Source: Azospirillaceae bacterium
GTDB taxonomy: Bacteria > Pseudomonadota > Alphaproteobacteria > Azospirillales > Azospirillaceae
Assembly (NCBI GenBank): GCA_035645145.1
Contig: DASQNC010000025.1
Location: forward strand, 434,001 to 498,000
Direction: 5' to 3'
DNA: 64,000 nucleotides
Under the pieces are notes generated by a model, which had not been told where the DNA came from, ran no database searches, and saw only the letters and a program-made list of their open reading frames with translations. The position numbers and the translations under genes were made by a program. The number at the start of each line of letters is the position of its first letter. Position 1 is the first letter of the stretch. Below, in pieces: positions 35,237 to 56,777 of this stretch.

Positions 35237-35251
35237 TTAACAGACTCTTAA
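35237..35251 (-). promoter_or_regulatory. CtrA box, with an embedded GANTC methylation site
   Basis: On the minus strand the sequence is TTAA-GAGTCTG-TTAAC, an exact match to the alphaproteobacterial CtrA consensus TTAA-N7-TTAAC. The spacer contains GAGTC, a CcrM (GANTC) methylation site. It is 60 bp upstream of the ATG of the 72-aa protein. CcrM-dependent control of CtrA promoters is known in Caulobacter; here the combination is inferred from sequence. Confidence 0.7.
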
Positions 35252-48651: not shown

Positions 48652-51600
48652 TTATGCCCGGCCAGCGTCCCCCATACGGCGCCGGTACTCCTGCAGGAAG
48701 TTCTGGAACAGATCCACTTCGCCGACCTTCTGCTGGATCGTGCGAATGTCCAGAAGCCCAGTCGCCTGTTCGGGCCGTGTCATCAGACGGAACGTGTCGA
48801 AGTCCGGCGTGCCCTCCATCGCCGCCGAGAAATCGCGGCGCAGAGCAGCCAGTCCCCCCGCATCCCCCGACAGGGCCAGAGCCACGGCCCGGTTCAACAA
48901 TGCCCGGCGCAGCTCGGGGGCGATCTGTCCACTCTTCGGCGGCGGGCCGATCAGGACCGCCAGCGCACGCTCGGCGTCGCGCCAGCGCTGGGCACGCCAC
49001 GCAATGTCGATGCGCAGAAAATCCGCGGGCTGGGAATCGTCCCCATCCAGAAGCCGAAGCGCCTGTTCCGACCGGCCGAGTTCCGCGAGCGCACGTGCAT
49101 AGAGCAGCCGACGCTCACGCACCATCTCCGTCGACAGACCCTGCGCATTGCTCATCTCGATCGCCTGGGCGGCTTCCTCCGGCCGATTGTCGAGCAACCG
49201 GATCGCGGCCAACCGTGCGCCGACCGCGGCCTTTTCAGGACCGACCAAACGGTCGCGAACCTGCATTTCCAAAAGCGTCGCCGCTCGGTCCAACAGGTCA
49301 ACCTGCACGAGGCGCTCGGCAAGCCGTGCGATCACGACCTCGCCCCGCCGTCCGGACGGCAGGAGGTGGCGCCACTCGTCGAAGAAGCTGAGTGCGTTCA
49401 GCGGCGACAGGGCCGCGGCACCATCCTCCACGAAGATCCGCGCAAAGGTTTCGGCCAACTCGCGATCAATGGAAGATCTGTTCGGGTGGTCGGGGTAGAA
49501 TTCTATCAATTGCTTCAGGTTGGCGAAGCCGCGCACGAACTCGCCATGGGCGATCTGCAAGCGTGCCAAGCGTCGGCGGATGGCGATCTCCAGTTCGTCG
49601 CCGCGCCAAGCAAAAGTGAGGCGTTCCAACCGCTCCATCGCCTGTACGGCCGTGGCCTTGCCGGTCGTCAGTTCCAGGTCGATCAGCGCGAATTCCGCCC
49701 GGGTCCGGGCAAGCCGGTCGGTTCCCTTTTCTGCCGCGAGGGCCCAGAGCTGCGCCGCCGCATCCGTTCGCTTCTGCTGGTACTCCGCCAAGCCGCGCAG
49801 GAAGCGGCTCGCGCCGCTGGACTCGTCGCCAGCCTCGACACGGGTGTCGAGGCGATCCAGCAGGCGGATGGCCTCCTGCGGCTCATTTGCAACGAGGGCC
49901 GCCTCGGCGGCCAAAAGCGAGAAGCGGGTGAAGAACGGGTCCGGATAGGCGACCAGTGCGGCCTCGGCCCGTGAAAAGCCGCCGCGGGCGGCGGTCCAAT
50001 TGCCGGCCGTGGCTTCGCCGGCGGCCCGCCACAAGGTGGCCTCCAGGTCTCCATCAAGGGCCTTGTCCGCCAGATCGGCCAGACCTTCCTGCGGCCTCCC
50101 CGCCCAAACCCGTGCGGCTCCGCGCATGGCGCGGAACTCCGGCCGAAGGGCCGCGGTGGGCAGCGCCATCTCCACCAGATCCAATGCCCCCAACGTTTCG
50201 GGGGCAAACCCGTGGGCGAAGTAGAAGCGGGCCAGTTCGATGCGGCGCTTCTCGCGTTCGTCACCCGCGGGCGCCTGCACCACGGCGTCCAGCAACTGCT
50301 GGCGCGTTTCGACATAGGCGCTCGACGGGCCGCGGCGCCAACCATGGATGTCGAACAGGCGCACGGCATCGCCCGGTCGGGGGACACGCCGTAGATCGGT
50401 GGTCGGCGAGAGGGCGAGGCCACCCTGCGCCGTAATCTCCACCATCGCCGTCAGCGGCCGCGCCACCAGCCCATCCCGCAACGGGCGGATGGCGACCCCC
50501 TGCAGGGTGGGGACCAGTTCGACATCGGGGAAGCGGCTGCCATCGGCCACGGCCTGCGGCGCCTCCGAAAGGGGGACGATCAGGAGCTCGTCGCCGATTT
50601 CGGGATCTGTGAACGGTACCACGCGCGTCGCACCACTGGCCCGGACCAGAATACGTGGGCCAAGGGTGAATTCCGGCTCGGACTCGACGGGCAGCGAGAA
50701 CGCGCGGGGCGCACGGGTGGTCAGCAGCAGCACCCGCCAGGTGTTGCCGTCGCGTTCCACCGCCGGCTCGACACCCGGAGGCATCCGGAACCGCATCGCC
50801 GTCACGTCGCCGACGGCCGCCGACTCGACCGTACCGAAGCGCGGCGTCTGCGGCCCCACCTCGATTTCCGGTTGGCGGGCCAGACGGCGGTCGAAAACGA
50901 CGTAGATGTAGCCGGCCCGCTGAAACACGGCCGCAGCCGCGGGTTCCGCCAACTTCAGTGTGACGGCCGATGCCGGACCTGACGGATCCTGCGCCACCGG
51001 TCGCGCAGATGCCACTGGAACGGATGGCGCGCTCGGCCCCTGGGCTCCCCCCACGGCTCCCGGTGGGCCGCCCAGTTGGGCCGCGGATGGAGCAGTGGCC
51101 TCCTCCCCTGCACGAGCCGCCGGGGACGCCGAAGGAGGCGGTTGCACCGATCTCTGTTCGGCAGCCGGCTGAGGGGCCTTTGCTTGCACGCCAGCCGGCT
51201 GAGAAGATGCGGGTTGCGCTGCGGGCGCCGGCTGGGCCGGTGCCGCCGGTCCCTGCGCCATCGGCTGCCCCTGCGGAGCAGACGCAGCCGCCTGGGCCGG
51301 GGCCGCGGAGGACGGATGGGCATCGAGAACGTCCAGAACGACGCTGTTCCCGACCCGGAAGTCCCGGACCCGCGCATCCGCGGGCACGGTGACCTTCACG
51401 GAAAGCTGGTCACCACTCAATTGCGGGGCGAGGCCATGGATCCGCTGCGGCTTCACCAGGTCGACGTGGGACGAGTCCACCTTTGCCGCACGGGGGAAGG
51501 TGACGGTCACGATGTTACCGTCACGGGTGACATGGTAATCGGTGCGATCCTTCCAGTTGAATAGAAGGCGGGTGTATCCGTCATGCAGGCCCGTCCGCAC

Positions 51601-52080
51601 CGGCAGGTTCGGCAGGTTGCGGGCAGCCGGCTGCGTACCGGTCGGAGCCGGGGCGGAGGCCGGCTGTGCCTGTGGCCCGGGCACGGTGCCCAGAACATCG
51701 ACCACGACGCTGCTGCCGTCGCTGAAAGCCCGAGCCGACACCGGCCGCTTGGTCGTAATGACCAGAGTCCGGCCATCGGGTCCGACGCCGACCGTGCTCA
51801 CCATATCGGGCAAAGCGGCGGAAATTGCGCCGAAGCTTCCCTCCACGGGGCGGTCGAACCGAAGCGACACCTGTTGCGCCGATGCGTCGAACGAAAATTC
51901 GACGGGCTGCGGCCAGGTGAGAACGATACGGCCGCCTTGCCCTTGGGGCTGCGCCGCCACCCCGACCTGCTCGGCGCGCGATGGTACGGCGGCACCGATA
52001 GCCGTCGCCAGAACCGCCGTGGCGATCAGCGCGCCACCACGCCCTGTTGCCGTCCGGTTCCTGTTCTTCGCACCGCGCAT
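48652..52080 (-). CDS. Large exported protein with beta-rich repeats and C-terminal TPRs, last gene of the fliL operon
   Basis: 1142 aa. Signal peptide (about 1-36, ending SRA). Then two beta-rich AMIN-like modules (about 49-131 and 160-254; each ends VVVDVLG/VVLDVLDA), an Ala/Pro/Gln linker (about 255-370), a third module, and a long helical C-terminal half (about 600-1140) with TPR-like repeats (YFAHGFAPETLGALDLVEMAL, SPLNALSFFDEW). This predicts a periplasmic scaffold. No catalytic motif. It follows motE by 62 bp, which points to a flagellar motor or envelope role. I know TPR proteins in this operon position only as uncharacterised Rhodospirillales proteins. Confidence 0.85.
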   Translation of the reverse strand: MRGAKNRNRTATGRGGALIATAVLATAIGAAVPSRAEQVGVAAQPQGQGGRIVLTWPQPVEFSFDASAQQVSLRFDRPVEGSFGAISAALPDMVSTVGVGPDGRTLVITTKRPVSARAFSDGSSVVVDVLGTVPGPQAQPASAPAPTGTQPAARNLPNLPVRTGLHDGYTRLLFNWKDRTDYHVTRDGNIVTVTFPRAAKVDSSHVDLVKPQRIHGLAPQLSGDQLSVKVTVPADARVRDFRVGNSVVLDVLDAHPSSAAPAQAAASAPQGQPMAQGPAAPAQPAPAAQPASSQPAGVQAKAPQPAAEQRSVQPPPSASPAARAGEEATAPSAAQLGGPPGAVGGAQGPSAPSVPVASARPVAQDPSGPASAVTLKLAEPAAAAVFQRAGYIYVVFDRRLARQPEIEVGPQTPRFGTVESAAVGDVTAMRFRMPPGVEPAVERDGNTWRVLLLTTRAPRAFSLPVESEPEFTLGPRILVRASGATRVVPFTDPEIGDELLIVPLSEAPQAVADGSRFPDVELVPTLQGVAIRPLRDGLVARPLTAMVEITAQGGLALSPTTDLRRVPRPGDAVRLFDIHGWRRGPSSAYVETRQQLLDAVVQAPAGDEREKRRIELARFYFAHGFAPETLGALDLVEMALPTAALRPEFRAMRGAARVWAGRPQEGLADLADKALDGDLEATLWRAAGEATAGNWTAARGGFSRAEAALVAYPDPFFTRFSLLAAEAALVANEPQEAIRLLDRLDTRVEAGDESSGASRFLRGLAEYQQKRTDAAAQLWALAAEKGTDRLARTRAEFALIDLELTTGKATAVQAMERLERLTFAWRGDELEIAIRRRLARLQIAHGEFVRGFANLKQLIEFYPDHPNRSSIDRELAETFARIFVEDGAAALSPLNALSFFDEWRHLLPSGRRGEVVIARLAERLVQVDLLDRAATLLEMQVRDRLVGPEKAAVGARLAAIRLLDNRPEEAAQAIEMSNAQGLSTEMVRERRLLYARALAELGRSEQALRLLDGDDSQPADFLRIDIAWRAQRWRDAERALAVLIGPPPKSGQIAPELRRALLNRAVALALSGDAGGLAALRRDFSAAMEGTPDFDTFRLMTRPEQATGLLDIRTIQQKVGEVDLFQNFLQEYRRRMGDAGRA

Positions 52081-52142
52081 TGCTCAGCCATTCACGATTG
52101 GGGGCAGACGGGAAGGACCAGTCGCATTGGACCGGCCGGCGG

Positions 52143-53567
52143 CTATTGCACCGGAACCGGCGGGATTTGCCGGCGCTCGGCCAGTTGGGTTGTCACTTCG
52201 CGGGCGCGTTGGGCGTCCATGGCGGCGAGAATTGGGGCCGCCTTGGCCTCGCGCATGTTGCTCAGGACCTCCAGGAGCACGGGCATTTCCAGGGTGCCCA
52301 TGATGCGCGCGGCATCGGCCGGGCGCATGGTCTCGTACCATTTGACAAGACGCTCGGTTTCCTGCCGGTCGAGTTGGTCGGCCTGCTTCACCAACGCCTG
52401 GAGCTGGGTCGTCAGGTTCTTGATTTCGCCCAGCTTCTGGTCGATGCGCTTTTCCGCGGCAACCAGCAAGGCTTCCCGCTGGTCCTGCTCAATCTGCCTA
52501 CGATTCTGCTCCGCACGCCGTTCCGCCAGACGCTGCAGGACTTCCTGCTCGGCATCGGTGAAACGATCGGGAACCAACGAATTGGCGTCGCTGGAAGCGG
52601 CCGCGGGCTGGATTGACCGTACGGGCGCGGAAGATCCGGCCGGCGCCTGCTGGGCCTGCGCCACCTGCTGGGCCTGCGCCGCCGGCTGGGCCGGTCCCGT
52701 TGCCTGCGCGGTCTGCTGCGCAGGCATGGTTTGGCTCGTGTTGGTCGGGGTGGCCGCGTTCTGGGCGGGAACCTGGGCCGCGCTGGAGGCCGGAGGGTTC
52801 TGCACAGCCTGCGCCTTCACGGCGCGGGCGGCATTACCGGTTTCCACTGTTGTCCAGACGTCCTTGAGCCGGACGCCCAGCATCAGAACGGCGACGAAGA
52901 TCAGAACCGGCAGAAGCCGCGGCTGCATCTTGCGCCGCACCCGGGGAGCGGCGGGCCGGACGAGGGCACGGGCCATGCGACGCACGGCCGGTGCGGCAGC
53001 CTGCACCGCAGCAGCAGCTCCTTGAGCGATCGCCTGAGCCGGCGCGGTTGCACCCGCGGCAACACCTGCGCCCGCCTGCGGCGCCGGGCGCCCAGAGGCT
53101 GCCTCCTGCACCTGCCGCGGCGGGCCACCGGGGCGCGGCGGGCCGGACGGACGGGGTGGGCCCGGCGGACGGGGTCGCGCAGCCGGCCGCAGCTCGGCGT
53201 GGCCGGGCGCGGTTTGGGTTTGTATCGGCGCTTCGCCGCCGGGCGCGGGACGTGCGCCGGGTGGGCGCGGTGCCCCCCCTTGCGGACGTGGCGGCCCGCC
53301 GGCCGGACCACGTGGACGGGGGGGCGGGCCGGCAGGTCCCTGCGGCGACTGGGGTGCCACTTCGGCCGTCGCCGGCGCGTTGGCCGCCGGACCGGCCGGC
53401 CGGCCGCCGGAGGCAGGGGGCGGAGTGCGCGGACCGGCCGGACGCGGCGCGGGACCGCGTGGCGGCACGGGCGCTTGGCCTGAAGCGGCCGGATCGGGGG
53501 TGTGCGGCCCGGCAGCCTGTCGGGCGTTCGGGTTGGCCGGGGGCCGACGGGGAGGTGTCGAGCTCAT
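52143..53567 (-). CDS. motE: MotE-family flagellar motility protein with long Pro-rich N-terminal extension
   Basis: 474 aa. The last 260 residues are MotE-like: a transmembrane helix (about 217-233), a Gln/Ala/Pro-rich linker, a coiled coil (about 340-400: EVLQRLAERRAEQNRRQIEQ), and the MgtE-N-like C-terminus (MRPADAARIMGTLEMPVLLEVLSNMREAKAAPILAAM). MotE in alphaproteobacteria acts as a MotC chaperone. The first 213 residues are an Ala/Pro/Gly/Arg-rich tail on the cytoplasmic side, which ordinary MotE lacks. Its ATG overlaps the upstream stop as ATGA, so the extension appears real rather than a start-site error. Confidence 0.88.
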   Translation of the reverse strand: MSSTPPRRPPANPNARQAAGPHTPDPAASGQAPVPPRGPAPRPAGPRTPPPASGGRPAGPAANAPATAEVAPQSPQGPAGPPPRPRGPAGGPPRPQGGAPRPPGARPAPGGEAPIQTQTAPGHAELRPAARPRPPGPPRPSGPPRPGGPPRQVQEAASGRPAPQAGAGVAAGATAPAQAIAQGAAAAVQAAAPAVRRMARALVRPAAPRVRRKMQPRLLPVLIFVAVLMLGVRLKDVWTTVETGNAARAVKAQAVQNPPASSAAQVPAQNAATPTNTSQTMPAQQTAQATGPAQPAAQAQQVAQAQQAPAGSSAPVRSIQPAAASSDANSLVPDRFTDAEQEVLQRLAERRAEQNRRQIEQDQREALLVAAEKRIDQKLGEIKNLTTQLQALVKQADQLDRQETERLVKWYETMRPADAARIMGTLEMPVLLEVLSNMREAKAAPILAAMDAQRAREVTTQLAERRQIPPVPVQ

Positions 53568-54130
53568 CTAAGCTTCTCGATCACTTGGAGCAGTTCGCGC
53601 TCGGCCCTGGACAGGGTATCGACAACGGGCGCCGCCGGCCGCATATCCCCCCCCTCGGCGCCGGGCTTGGCCGCGACGGCGCCGGTCCGGGTCGCGGAGG
53701 ACGGCGCGGCGGAGGGCGTGCCCGTTTGGGATACAGCCGTTGCCGCCTGCCCGACGGGAGCTGCCGGTGCCGCGCTGCCCGCGGCGCGGGACGCGGGTGG
53801 TGCCACTCGGGTGCCGATGTTCTCAAGCCGGCTGCAAAGACTGTCGGCCGTTTCAATCATGATCTGCAGCTCGTCCCGCAGCGCGCGCGCGCGGTCGACC
53901 TGCTTGAGCAGCTGTTCACCCGTTTCGCTGGCCGTCTGGCGCATGGCCTTGACGCCGGCCTCGGCCCGTTGGGTCGCCTCGGCGAAACCACGGACCAGGA
54001 TTTCCAGCTCCTCGCGCCCCTGCCGGATCATCAAAATCCGCTTGTTCAGCGCAAAGGCAGTGACGATCGTCCCGGCCAAAAGGCCGATGATGATCAGGTC
54101 GAGCCCGAGGCCCAGCCAATCGACGTTCAT
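53564..54130 (-). CDS. DUF6468 flagellar-operon membrane protein
   Basis: 188 aa. A single N-terminal transmembrane helix (about 7-27), then a helical coiled coil (about 35-110: EELEILVRGFAEATQRAEAGVKAM and EQLLKQVDRARALRDELQIMIETADSLCSRLE), then a Pro/Ala-rich tail and a short C-terminal helix (LSRAERELLQVIEKLR). It belongs to the alphaproteobacterial DUF6468 family found next to fliM and motE. It overlaps both neighbours by ATGA, so it is translated in step with FliM and MotE. Function unknown. Confidence 0.85.
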   Translation of the reverse strand: MNVDWLGLGLDLIIIGLLAGTIVTAFALNKRILMIRQGREELEILVRGFAEATQRAEAGVKAMRQTASETGEQLLKQVDRARALRDELQIMIETADSLCSRLENIGTRVAPPASRAAGSAAPAAPVGQAATAVSQTGTPSAAPSSATRTGAVAAKPGAEGGDMRPAAPVVDTLSRAERELLQVIEKLR

Positions 54131-55200
54131 TGCGGCGTTTCCTCGGGTTTGGGTGTTTCGCCGTCGATGCGGACGGCAATGTGGCCGCCCTTGCGCCCCA
54201 TCCGGCCGGTGAACATCGGGACGTCACCGCAGCGGAGATCAACGGAATCGTCCGGCGAAGCATTGAGCATGATGCGGGTGCCAACCTTCCAGTTCAGCAC
54301 CTCGTGCAATGGCAGCGTCACTTGGTCGAGAACAGCCGCAAGCTGGACGTCGGTCATCCAGAGTTCGCCGGCCAGGTGGGTTTCCCAAATGCTGTCGCGG
54401 CCGAACTTCTCGCCCATGAACATCTGGAGCAGCAGCTCGCGAACTGGCTCCAGCGTCGCGTATGGGATCAGTAACTCAAGCCGGCCACCGCGGTCCTCCA
54501 TATCGATCCGCAGCTTGGCCAGGACGGCCGCATTGGAAGGACGGGAGATGGTGGCGAAGCGTGGGTTGGTTTCCAACCGGTCGAATCGGAACGTGACGGG
54601 AGACAACGGATCGAAGGCAGCGGACAGGTCCGACAGGACCACATGGACCATGCGCTCGACCAGGTTGCGCTCGATCGTCGTGTAGGGCCGCCCCTCGATG
54701 CGCATTGCGGCCGTACCGCGGCGACCACCCAGCAACACGTCGACGATCGAATAGATCATCGCGCTGTCGATCGTCATCAGGCCGAAGTTGTCCCATTCCT
54801 CGGCCTTGAACACCGCAAGCATGGCCGGCAAGGGGATTGAATTCAGATAGTCCCCGAATCGAACGCTGGATATCTGATCGAGCGACACTTCGACGTTGTC
54901 CGACGTGAAGTTGCGCAGCGACGTGGACATCATGCGCACGAGGCGGTCGAAGACCACCTCCAGCATCGGCAAGCGTTCGTAGTTGACCAGCGCCGAATTG
55001 ACCAGCGCCATGATCCCGGAGTTTTCCCCGTCTCCGGCGCCGTTCTGGTCGAAGCCCAGGAGGCTGTCGATCTCGTCCTGATTCAACACACGGGTGGAGC
55101 CGCCGAGGGCAGCACCGATTCCGCCATCCCCCTCCGCCATGGCCGCCCATTCTGCGGCCATGCGCTCTTCTTCACTCAGCCCGTCCAGCTTGCCGGTCAT
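54127..55200 (-). CDS. fliM: Flagellar motor switch protein FliM
   Basis: 357-aa C-ring protein that binds phospho-CheY and sets rotation direction. The N-terminal CheY-binding peptide is LNQDEIDSLLGF (about 39-50). The middle domain has VFDRLVRMMSTSLRNFTSDNVEVSLDQISSVRFGDYL and SDLSAAFDPLSPVTFRFDRLETNPRFA; the C-terminal FliN-like domain has LPLHEVLNWKVGTRIML and GRMGRKGGHIAVRI. An extra 38 acidic residues precede the CheY motif. Confidence 0.97.
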   Translation of the reverse strand: MTGKLDGLSEEERMAAEWAAMAEGDGGIGAALGGSTRVLNQDEIDSLLGFDQNGAGDGENSGIMALVNSALVNYERLPMLEVVFDRLVRMMSTSLRNFTSDNVEVSLDQISSVRFGDYLNSIPLPAMLAVFKAEEWDNFGLMTIDSAMIYSIVDVLLGGRRGTAAMRIEGRPYTTIERNLVERMVHVVLSDLSAAFDPLSPVTFRFDRLETNPRFATISRPSNAAVLAKLRIDMEDRGGRLELLIPYATLEPVRELLLQMFMGEKFGRDSIWETHLAGELWMTDVQLAAVLDQVTLPLHEVLNWKVGTRIMLNASPDDSVDLRCGDVPMFTGRMGRKGGHIAVRIDGETPKPEETPQ

Positions 55201-55256
55201 GGCCTCACCTCAGCCCGTTGGGCCCATCGATCGGATCCGCACCCGCACCGCGGCCG

Positions 55257-55769
55257 TCATTGCACCAGCACTTCCTGGAACAGCACGTCCTTGACCTGCA
55301 CAGGCTGGACCGCAATGGCAATGCGGTAGCGCAGCTCCTCGCGCAGTCGCTGGAAGCCGGCGGACCCGCGCAGATCCTCGAGCCGCAGCTCCCGAAGGTA
55401 GACTTGCAAATTGTCGACCACCCGGCTCTGCAGCTCGACCACCTTCGCCCGGTCCTCGATGCGGCACAACTCCAGGCTGACCCGGAGCTTCATGTAGCTC
55501 TGCCGCCGGGCCCCCGTGGATGTGAGGTTCACCAGGATTTCGGGCATGTCCTGGAAGGTCGCCACACACCCGGCCGCCTGATCCGGCGGCGGAGCCTCGG
55601 CCACCTTGGTGCCGGACAAGAAATCCAGCACGCCACTGAAGTAGACGGCCGCCCCGCCGACAGACAGCAGCAGAAGCGGCAGGACAATGAACAGGACGAT
55701 CCGCTTGCCGCTTAGTCGCTTCCGCGGAAGATCCTGGATATCAACGTCGTCGTGCATCTCCGCGACCAT
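55257..55769 (-). CDS. fliL: Flagellar basal-body protein FliL
   Basis: About 170 aa, start at the ATG at 55769 (GGAG 13 bp upstream; ATG at 55757 is an alternative). A basic N-terminal segment, one transmembrane helix (about 24-45), then a periplasmic FliL domain with MPEILVNLTSTGARRQSYMKLRVSLEL, RVVDNLQVYLRELRLEDL and the C-terminal VKDVLFQEVLVQ. It supports stator function. First gene of fliL-fliM-DUF6468-motE-TPR; divergent from flgF. Confidence 0.94.
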   Translation of the reverse strand: MVAEMHDDVDIQDLPRKRLSGKRIVLFIVLPLLLLSVGGAAVYFSGVLDFLSGTKVAEAPPPDQAAGCVATFQDMPEILVNLTSTGARRQSYMKLRVSLELCRIEDRAKVVELQSRVVDNLQVYLRELRLEDLRGSAGFQRLREELRYRIAIAVQPVQVKDVLFQEVLVQ

Positions 55770-56051: not shown

Positions 56052-56777
56052 ATGGAAACACCGAGTTACATCGCGCTCGCCAGGCAGGACACACTGCGCC
56101 GCCAGATGGATGTGATCGCCAACAACGTGGCGAACATGAACACCACCGGCTTCAAGGCGCAGCGGATGCAGTTCGTGGAATTCCTCGAACGCGCCTCCCA
56201 ATCGGAACGCTATTCGATGCCCGTCGACCTCGCGACGACGCGGGACAACCGGCCGGGCCCGGTGACACCCACGGGCAACCCACTGGACGTTGCGATCGAA
56301 GGCGATGCCTACTTCGTCGTGGATACGGCGAACGGTCCGCGGTACACCCGCTCCGGACAGTTCCGCTTGGATTCCCAGCGCCGCATCGTCGATAAGAGCG
56401 GCCTGCCGGTCCTGAACCAAGCCAATCAGCCGATGGCGATCCCCGCTGCGGCGAACGAGATCACGATCACTGAATCCGGCATCGTCTCGACCGAGTTGGG
56501 CCAGGTCGGCCGCTTCCGCATGGTGCGGTTCAACGGCGACCAGCAACTCGAAGAGGTCGGCAACGGCCTCTACGCTACCGATCAGCAGGCCGTCGCCGCG
56601 GAGGATGCCAAGGTCGTGCAGGGCATGCTCGAGGGCTCAAACGTCCAGGGCGTCGTCGAGATGACCAGCATGATTTCTGTCACCCGCGAGTACCAGCAGG
56701 TACAGAAGATGATCGAGGCCGAGCATGAACGGATGCGCACGGCCAACCGTCAATTGTCGCGCCTCAGCGGCGCCTGA
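56052..56777 (+). CDS. flgF: Flagellar proximal rod protein FlgF
   Basis: 241 aa. Typical FlgF/G N-terminus (YIALARQDTLRRQMDVIANNVANMNTTGFKAQRMQFVEF), middle beta region with GNPLDVAIEGDAYFVVDT, and C-terminus VVEMTSMISVTREYQQVQKMIEAEHERM. ATG at 56052 with GAGGACGG upstream; the longer frame includes the sigma-54 promoter region. Leads flgF-flgG-flgA-flgH. Confidence 0.95.
   Translation: METPSYIALARQDTLRRQMDVIANNVANMNTTGFKAQRMQFVEFLERASQSERYSMPVDLATTRDNRPGPVTPTGNPLDVAIEGDAYFVVDTANGPRYTRSGQFRLDSQRRIVDKSGLPVLNQANQPMAIPAAANEITITESGIVSTELGQVGRFRMVRFNGDQQLEEVGNGLYATDQQAVAAEDAKVVQGMLEGSNVQGVVEMTSMISVTREYQQVQKMIEAEHERMRTANRQLSRLSGA

Follow-up and report, generated by a model that had tools for sequence, protein, structure and literature searches.

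The E-ring of the flagellar motor is described in a 2026 review as having MotE/FlgY/FlbB as its sole component (PMC13023049; see also PMC11870540). The fold of these proteins comprises a long helix and a four-helix ARM-like head, and the tetratricopeptide repeat (TPR) proteins CC_2058, MotC, and MotK have been grouped with PflA and FlcB as partners of the E-ring protein (PMC13023049). In this work, we analyzed a tightly packed run of five genes that encode proteins comparable to these components, namely fliL, fliM, a DUF6468 gene, motE, and the gene for an AMIN-TPR protein of 1142 amino acids (aa), located on the minus strand at positions 48652-55769 of a 64,000-nucleotide stretch of DNA from an Azospirillaceae bacterium (hereafter, the window).

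The closest described systems come from a few species. In Caulobacter, CC_2058 is known as FssB, and its deletion results in filament-bearing, non-motile cells (PMC7885107). The Cereibacter sphaeroides operon has the order fliL-pflI-motE-motA-motK, the gene between fliL and motE being pflI, and MotK combines an AMIN-like N-terminus with a TPR-like remainder (PMC10954123). Loss of motK or motE paralyzes assembled flagella of C. sphaeroides, and MotK and MotE bind each other and MotB2; the proposed counterparts of MotK include CC_2058, although the Rhodobacterales and Caulobacteraceae proteins share structural similarity only and no BLAST similarity (PMC10954123). In Sinorhizobium, motC is located downstream of motB (PMC10954123). 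PflA consists of a beta-sandwich, an unstructured linker, and a TPR superhelix (PMC12222027). Finally, PflI is recruited by TipF and itself recruits FliG (PMC4187693, PMC11236974).

Compared with these systems, the five-gene run is a well-conserved operon that is explained in outline by the work on Caulobacter, Cereibacter, Campylobacter, Helicobacter, and Borrelia, and is not a new ring. Most likely, it encodes an alphaproteobacterial stator-scaffold module that consists of an E-ring MotE, an AMIN-TPR spoke, and a PflI placement factor and forms one operon with fliL and fliM. The identity of the genes, the architecture and fold similarity of their products, the gene order, the co-occurrence with flagella, and the predicted topologies were established in this analysis. 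An earlier note on this DNA had listed the same five genes as coupled or closely spaced, and each of them was recovered as a minus-strand open reading frame (ORF) at the same coordinates. The two genes that it regarded as uncharacterized turned out to have studied homologues in Caulobacter and Cereibacter. Its proposal of a motor-associated periplasmic scaffold is supported by the E-ring type of MotE and by the PflA/MotK/FssB type of the TPR protein, which is needed for stators to function in the homologues (PMC7885107, PMC10954123, PMC13023049).

The AMIN-TPR protein and its likeness to FssB, MotK, and PflA

The AMIN-TPR protein alone gave no significant match in Pfam. With the profile of its family, matches were obtained to the PilQ AMIN region (E 6e-4) and to TPR structures. 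The closest named relative of the protein, at 65%, comes from a Rhodospirillales metagenome bin. An AlphaFold2 model built from 45 aligned sequences (the window protein and named relatives) has a mean predicted local distance difference test (pLDDT) score of 83.9 and a predicted template modeling score of 0.53. In the alignments, the family signature is characterized by an invariant W825 and by R826, G827, and E831, each conserved at a level of at least 90%.

Among 350,542 PDB chains compared with Foldseek, the top match to the model was 9hmf_K (E 5.1e-9), a chain of 773 residues from the periplasmic scaffold of the Campylobacter jejuni flagellum. We take this chain to be PflA, since its length would fit mature PflA, counted from residue 16. 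The 9HMF entry is the scaffold model of a previous study (PMC12222027). The predicted fold match supports, and does not prove, that the window protein is of the PflA type. With PflA of C. jejuni and Helicobacter pylori, the protein shares the AMIN-like beta-sandwich, the unstructured linker, and the TPR superhelix, whereas PflA has one N-terminal beta-sandwich and the window protein has two AMIN domains and a further beta-region. PflA was absent from the results of the PDB sequence and profile searches with the TPR protein.

FssB is likewise an exported TPR protein with a reported AMIN-like N-terminus, encoded beside CC_2059 (MotE) in a similar cluster (PMC7885107, PMC10954123, PMC13023049); it belongs to another lineage and was likened to the window protein by its published description. 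The MotK protein of the C. sphaeroides Fla2 system shares the AMIN-like N-terminus, the TPR-like remainder, and a fliL-pflI-motE operon. However, MotK is shorter and very divergent, and motA is located between motE and motK. In the Paracoccaceae, the Paroceanicella profunda locus has the order fliL, a PflI-like gene, motE, motA, and a gene at the MotK position encoding an 883-aa protein. The latter matches the N-terminal profile of the TPR family (61.9 bits, E 1.3e-17 at Z=4000; hhalign 98.3%), whereas its match to the C-terminal profile is weak (13.9-21.8 bits), and no WRGD signature was found in it. This match supports orthology without proving it, given the wide occurrence of AMIN domains and the weakness of the C-terminal match. 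Nonetheless, it provides new profile-level sequence evidence that appears to tie the MotK-position protein to the FssB type. The likeness to Sinorhizobium MotC is one of gene position only, many TPR genes likewise being located downstream of motB. A 583-aa ORF in locus L178, considered as MotC by its position, was rejected because its sequence looks like that of a secreted trypsin-like protein; a search of plasmids with this ORF gave no match. Such 581-583-aa secreted trypsin-like proteins are encoded at L178:1483-3234 and L182:4161-5906, in two small genomes, with a 4-bp overlap between the gene and the end of motB.

MotE and the DUF6468 protein

In its structural model, MotE has a 76-residue helix (338-413) followed by a four-helix head (416-466). 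The head resembles the middle domain of FliG and the N domain of MgtE, with a root-mean-square deviation of mostly 1.2-2 Å over 52-68 columns; none of these matches is below E 1e-3, the region being short. Elsewhere the model is of low confidence (pLDDT 65), and the N-terminal 175 residues are unordered. An excess of Lys and Arg before the transmembrane segment (TM) was observed for 44 of 62 MotE family members, and the opposite for 4; the window MotE likewise appears to be N-in/C-out. Thus, the coiled coil and head of MotE are predicted from charge to be periplasmic. The long helix, the head of MgtE_N/ARM-like fold, and the anchoring by one TM, which CC_2059 and FlbB are also reported to have, are shared with the MotE/FlgY/FlbB proteins (COG3334). 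By homology, the window MotE belongs to this E-ring group, and its ring and dimer would be those of the studied members. Its previous description as chaperone-like corresponds to an older view, which has since been replaced by that of an E-ring subunit.

The window MotE differs from these proteins in its Pro/Ala-rich cytoplasmic tail. At 215 aa, this tail is the longest among 116 MotE proteins, of which 25 have tails exceeding 60 aa. One might imagine that it connects the periplasmic E-ring with PflI or the C-ring on the other side of the membrane; the motE and DUF6468 genes overlap by 4 bp, and the MotE tail and the DUF6468 coiled coil are both predicted to be cytoplasmic. We regard this link as a doubtful conjecture; if it is true, placement of the flagellum would be coupled to assembly of the stator scaffold.

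The DUF6468 protein scores 72.1 bits against PF20072 (cut-off 26.9), and the curated cut-offs were passed by the FliL, FliM, and DUF6468 matches alike. A PF20072 match was also obtained in the control genome of Caulobacter vibrioides, and a search of viral contigs and plasmids with the DUF6468 protein gave no match. The protein has a single TM near the N-terminus (approximately aa 10-28), followed by the DUF6468 coiled coil and a Pro/Ala-rich tail; the family alignment reveals a C-terminal motif of the RSxAExELLxALRxxR type. Almost all members of the family (59/60) have a hydropathy above 1.6, which fits an inner-membrane protein with a single TM, and in 58 of 60 the content of Lys and Arg is higher past the TM than ahead of it, the reverse being found in none (0/60). 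Because of this excess past the TM, the coiled coil is predicted by the positive-inside rule to face the cytoplasm, and it would therefore lie outside any periplasm-spanning scaffold, in which the earlier note had included it. A cytoplasmic coiled coil is in line with the recruitment of FliG by PflI (PMC4187693).

On the basis of gene order and the published assignment in C. sphaeroides (PMC10954123), the DUF6468 protein is assigned to the family of PflI, a flagellar placement factor in Caulobacter. It shares with PflI of Caulobacter crescentus the PF20072 domain and occupies the same position between fliL and motE as pflI of C. sphaeroides. The only difference is one of lineage, and the placement role in Azospirillaceae would hold by analogy.

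Gene order, distribution, and possible roles

The conservation of gene order was assessed in 60 loci selected solely by a DUF6468 match, with neighbors scored on the same strand within approximately 8 kb. Of these loci, 59 have MotE after the DUF6468 gene, 57 have FliM before it, and 48 have the TPR gene downstream; the five-gene arrangement is thus far beyond chance. The totals produced by the locus script additionally contain the window's own locus and a pair of plasmid loci selected by a TPR match. Where motE and the TPR gene are not adjacent, the intervening genes that were scanned encode CheZ, a CheY-type receiver, and a pair of MotB-like proteins. The pair of MotB-like genes was observed in 33 of 51 TPR loci and is absent from that of the window, in whose genome only one MotB_plug match was found. 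In 30 of the 51 TPR loci, the TPR gene is at most 120 bp from the nearer MotB-like gene, often with a 4-bp overlap; the finding that many relatives have the TPR gene immediately after a MotB-like gene is new. At L048:5036-7062, L063:5072-7892, and similar loci, cheZ precedes a pair of MotB-like genes, of which the second encodes an OmpA domain, and an overlap with the TPR gene is frequent. On an Azospirillum brasilense plasmid (L190:7630-11932), a relative of the TPR protein (hhalign 99.8%), carrying a WRGG variant of the signature, is encoded with motA-motB beside flgF-flgG-flgA-flgH. Six loci (L102, L115, L116, L123, L125, and L127) have a TPR gene without fliL, fliM, the DUF6468 gene, or motE within approximately 8 kb. 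At L116:11055-15185 and L125:10338-14486, a bacterial alpha-2-macroglobulin gene comes directly after the AMIN-TPR gene, and an Amidase_3 gene is found upstream; the same alpha-2-macroglobulin arrangement at L127:11114-15247 was judged by ORF size and position only.

The distribution of the family was determined with a profile of the C-terminal half of the TPR protein in 289 alphaproteobacterial genomes. The TPR protein was identified in 152 of them, DUF6468 in 149, and FliM in 160. FliM and the TPR protein are both present in 144 genomes and both absent from 121, so that the two agree in 265 of 289, whereas 16 genomes contain FliM only and 8 the TPR protein only (Fisher P 2e-52, a value that ignores shared ancestry and thus overstates independence). 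Seven of the eight genomes with the TPR protein only contain FlhA and are probably flagellated, with a gap in the draft. The family is not specific to Rhodospirillales, as had been supposed, but class-wide, being present also in Sphingomonadales. In a phylum-wide sample, strong matches (E <1e-129) were found only inside the Alphaproteobacteria, and the two matches outside this class were both around 1e-9. Both the TPR protein and DUF6468 are missing from eight genomes with FliM. In four of these that were read out (L176, L177, L179, and L180), FliM is divergent and MotB is PomB-like by eye; the PomB-like MotB suggests a foreign, possibly horizontally acquired, flagellum.

In the proposed stator-scaffold module, MotE dimers with one TM anchor each would surround the MS ring with their ARM-like heads to form an E-ring, from which the coiled coils would point outward. 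The exported AMIN-TPR protein would form a spoke or bracket between this ring and the stator (MotB, with FliL) and would be needed for stator recruitment or activation. Peptidoglycan and/or a partner would be the most likely binding target of its AMIN domains and of the disordered linker. The DUF6468 protein, as PflI, would be an inner-membrane and not a periplasmic component, with a cytoplasmic coiled coil, and would place the new flagellum together with FliG. The geometry of ring and spoke, the binding partners, the paralyzed phenotype, and the polar placement are carried over from the studied homologues and would apply here by analogy. Several observations weigh against this model. The PDB matches have low TM-scores (TMq 0.21 for 9hmf_K), and further TPR superhelices are close behind (E 1e-7 to 1e-5); generic TPR geometry thus accounts for part of the fold match. 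The MgtE_N match at the C-terminus of MotE (E 5e-4, 20.9 bits) is under the Pfam cut-off of 25.9. No PflB equivalent or partner was identified, CC_2058 and Cereibacter MotK were likened by their published descriptions, and in some relatives the TPR gene adjoins an alpha-2-macroglobulin gene and not flagellar genes.

The last of these observations, with the nearby Amidase_3 gene in L116 and L125 and the similar layout by size and position in L127, would fit a general envelope AMIN-TPR protein that is found among flagellar genes by accident. We consider this very improbable: FlhA was found in 24 of the 26 genomes behind the named loci, including all six in which the TPR gene is outside the flagellar cluster, and its co-occurrence with FlhA even when unlinked argues for a flagellar role. 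Furthermore, a single genome (G217) among the 152 with the TPR protein is without both FliM and FlhA, and its TPR match is weak (E 4e-25). A search for the TPR gene in non-flagellated relatives, suggested in the earlier note as a check, was thus carried out and left the flagellar role unrefuted, given FlhA in seven of the eight exceptions and in all six unlinked cases. The Rhodospirillales-specific, periplasm-spanning outer ring, DUF6468 included, which that note had suggested, would agree with the export of the TPR protein and the clustering of its gene with motor genes, and yet it is scarcely credible in view of the class-wide distribution and the predicted cytoplasmic location of the soluble part of DUF6468. 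The homologues, moreover, are located at the inner membrane (PMC13023049, PMC12222027), where they form membrane-proximal spokes and the E-ring that encircles the MS ring.

Rather unlikely, though deserving more weight than these, is a regulatory role in which the AMIN-TPR protein would activate or recruit stators by binding MotB and opening the MotB plug, with no fixed spoke. MotK has been proposed to activate or recruit stators, its localization requires MotA2/MotB2 (PMC10954123), and motB plug mutations suppress a related fssA defect in Caulobacter (PMC7885107); in addition, the TPR gene often adjoins a motB-like gene. In contrast, the architecture of the window protein is that of PflA, a structural spoke, and the two roles are not exclusive. 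With the stator-scaffold module as the preferred explanation, the analysis provides a class-wide map of a motor scaffold so far studied in few species, covering the carriers of MotE and the AMIN-TPR protein, the linkage to stator genes, and the probable membrane side of each part. It corrects two assumptions, of lineage specificity and of a periplasmic DUF6468, and opens the E-ring/spoke model to testing in Azospirillaceae.

Layout of the locus

The coordinates of the genes and domains are listed in Table 1. The gaps between fliL and fliM and between motE and the TPR gene are 56 and 62 bp, respectively, and 4-bp overlaps were found for both fliM/DUF6468 and DUF6468/motE. No terminator-like sites were found on the minus strand within the run.

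Table 1. Genes of the fliL-fliM-pflI-motE-TPR run and predicted domains of their products (window positions).
Feature	Positions	Strand	Evidence
fliL (170 aa), stator-associated FliL	55257-55769	-	PF03748 6e-17
fliM (357 aa), C-ring switch protein	54127-55200	-	PF02154 2.5e-64; TIGR01397 5.9e-91, over cut-off
pflI-type gene (188 aa)	53564-54130	-	PF20072 4.3e-20
motE (474 aa), E-ring-type protein	52143-53567	-	MgtE_N 5e-4; model; FliG-M/MgtE-N head match
Predicted cytoplasmic tail at the MotE N-terminus (aa 1-215), rich in Pro/Ala, largely disordered or of low confidence	52923-53567	-	Model
MotE TM (about aa 216-234), N-in/C-out by charge	52866-52922	-	Hydropathy, positive-inside count; model helix 219-242
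MotE predicted periplasmic long helix (338-413) and ARM-like/MgtE_N-like head (416-466)	52170-52556	-	Model
AMIN-TPR protein (1142 aa), FssB/MotK/PflA-type	48652-52080	-	Profile and structure matches
Sec signal peptide (aa 1-36, likely cleaved after SRA)	51973-52080	-	Read from sequence; model helix 18-29
AMIN-like domain 1 (aa 38-132)	51685-51969	-	AlphaFold2 block, pLDDT about 94-96
AMIN-like domain 2 (aa 157-253)	51322-51612	-	AlphaFold2; family profile matches PilQ AMIN region
Pro-rich disordered linker (aa 254-369)	50974-51321	-	pLDDT mostly <50
Third beta-region (aa 370-552)	50425-50973	-	AlphaFold2
TPR-like alpha-solenoid (aa 578-1141)	48658-50349	-	AlphaFold2; TPR structure matches
Family signature LERLTFAWRGDELE (consensus LExLRFaWRGDxxE)	49588-49629	-	Family alignments

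The ATG start of fliL corresponds to residue 41 of a longer ORF beginning with TTG and agrees with the end coordinate in the earlier note. A CtrA-type box was not found upstream of fliL; there are two matches in the window, both elsewhere and near the chance level, and the exact TTAA-N7-TTAA (CtrA-like) match at 35237-35251 is near chance for the window size. The run is flanked by flgF, which is divergent with a likely start codon at 56052, and by the convergent fliP, located 305 bp past the TPR stop codon.

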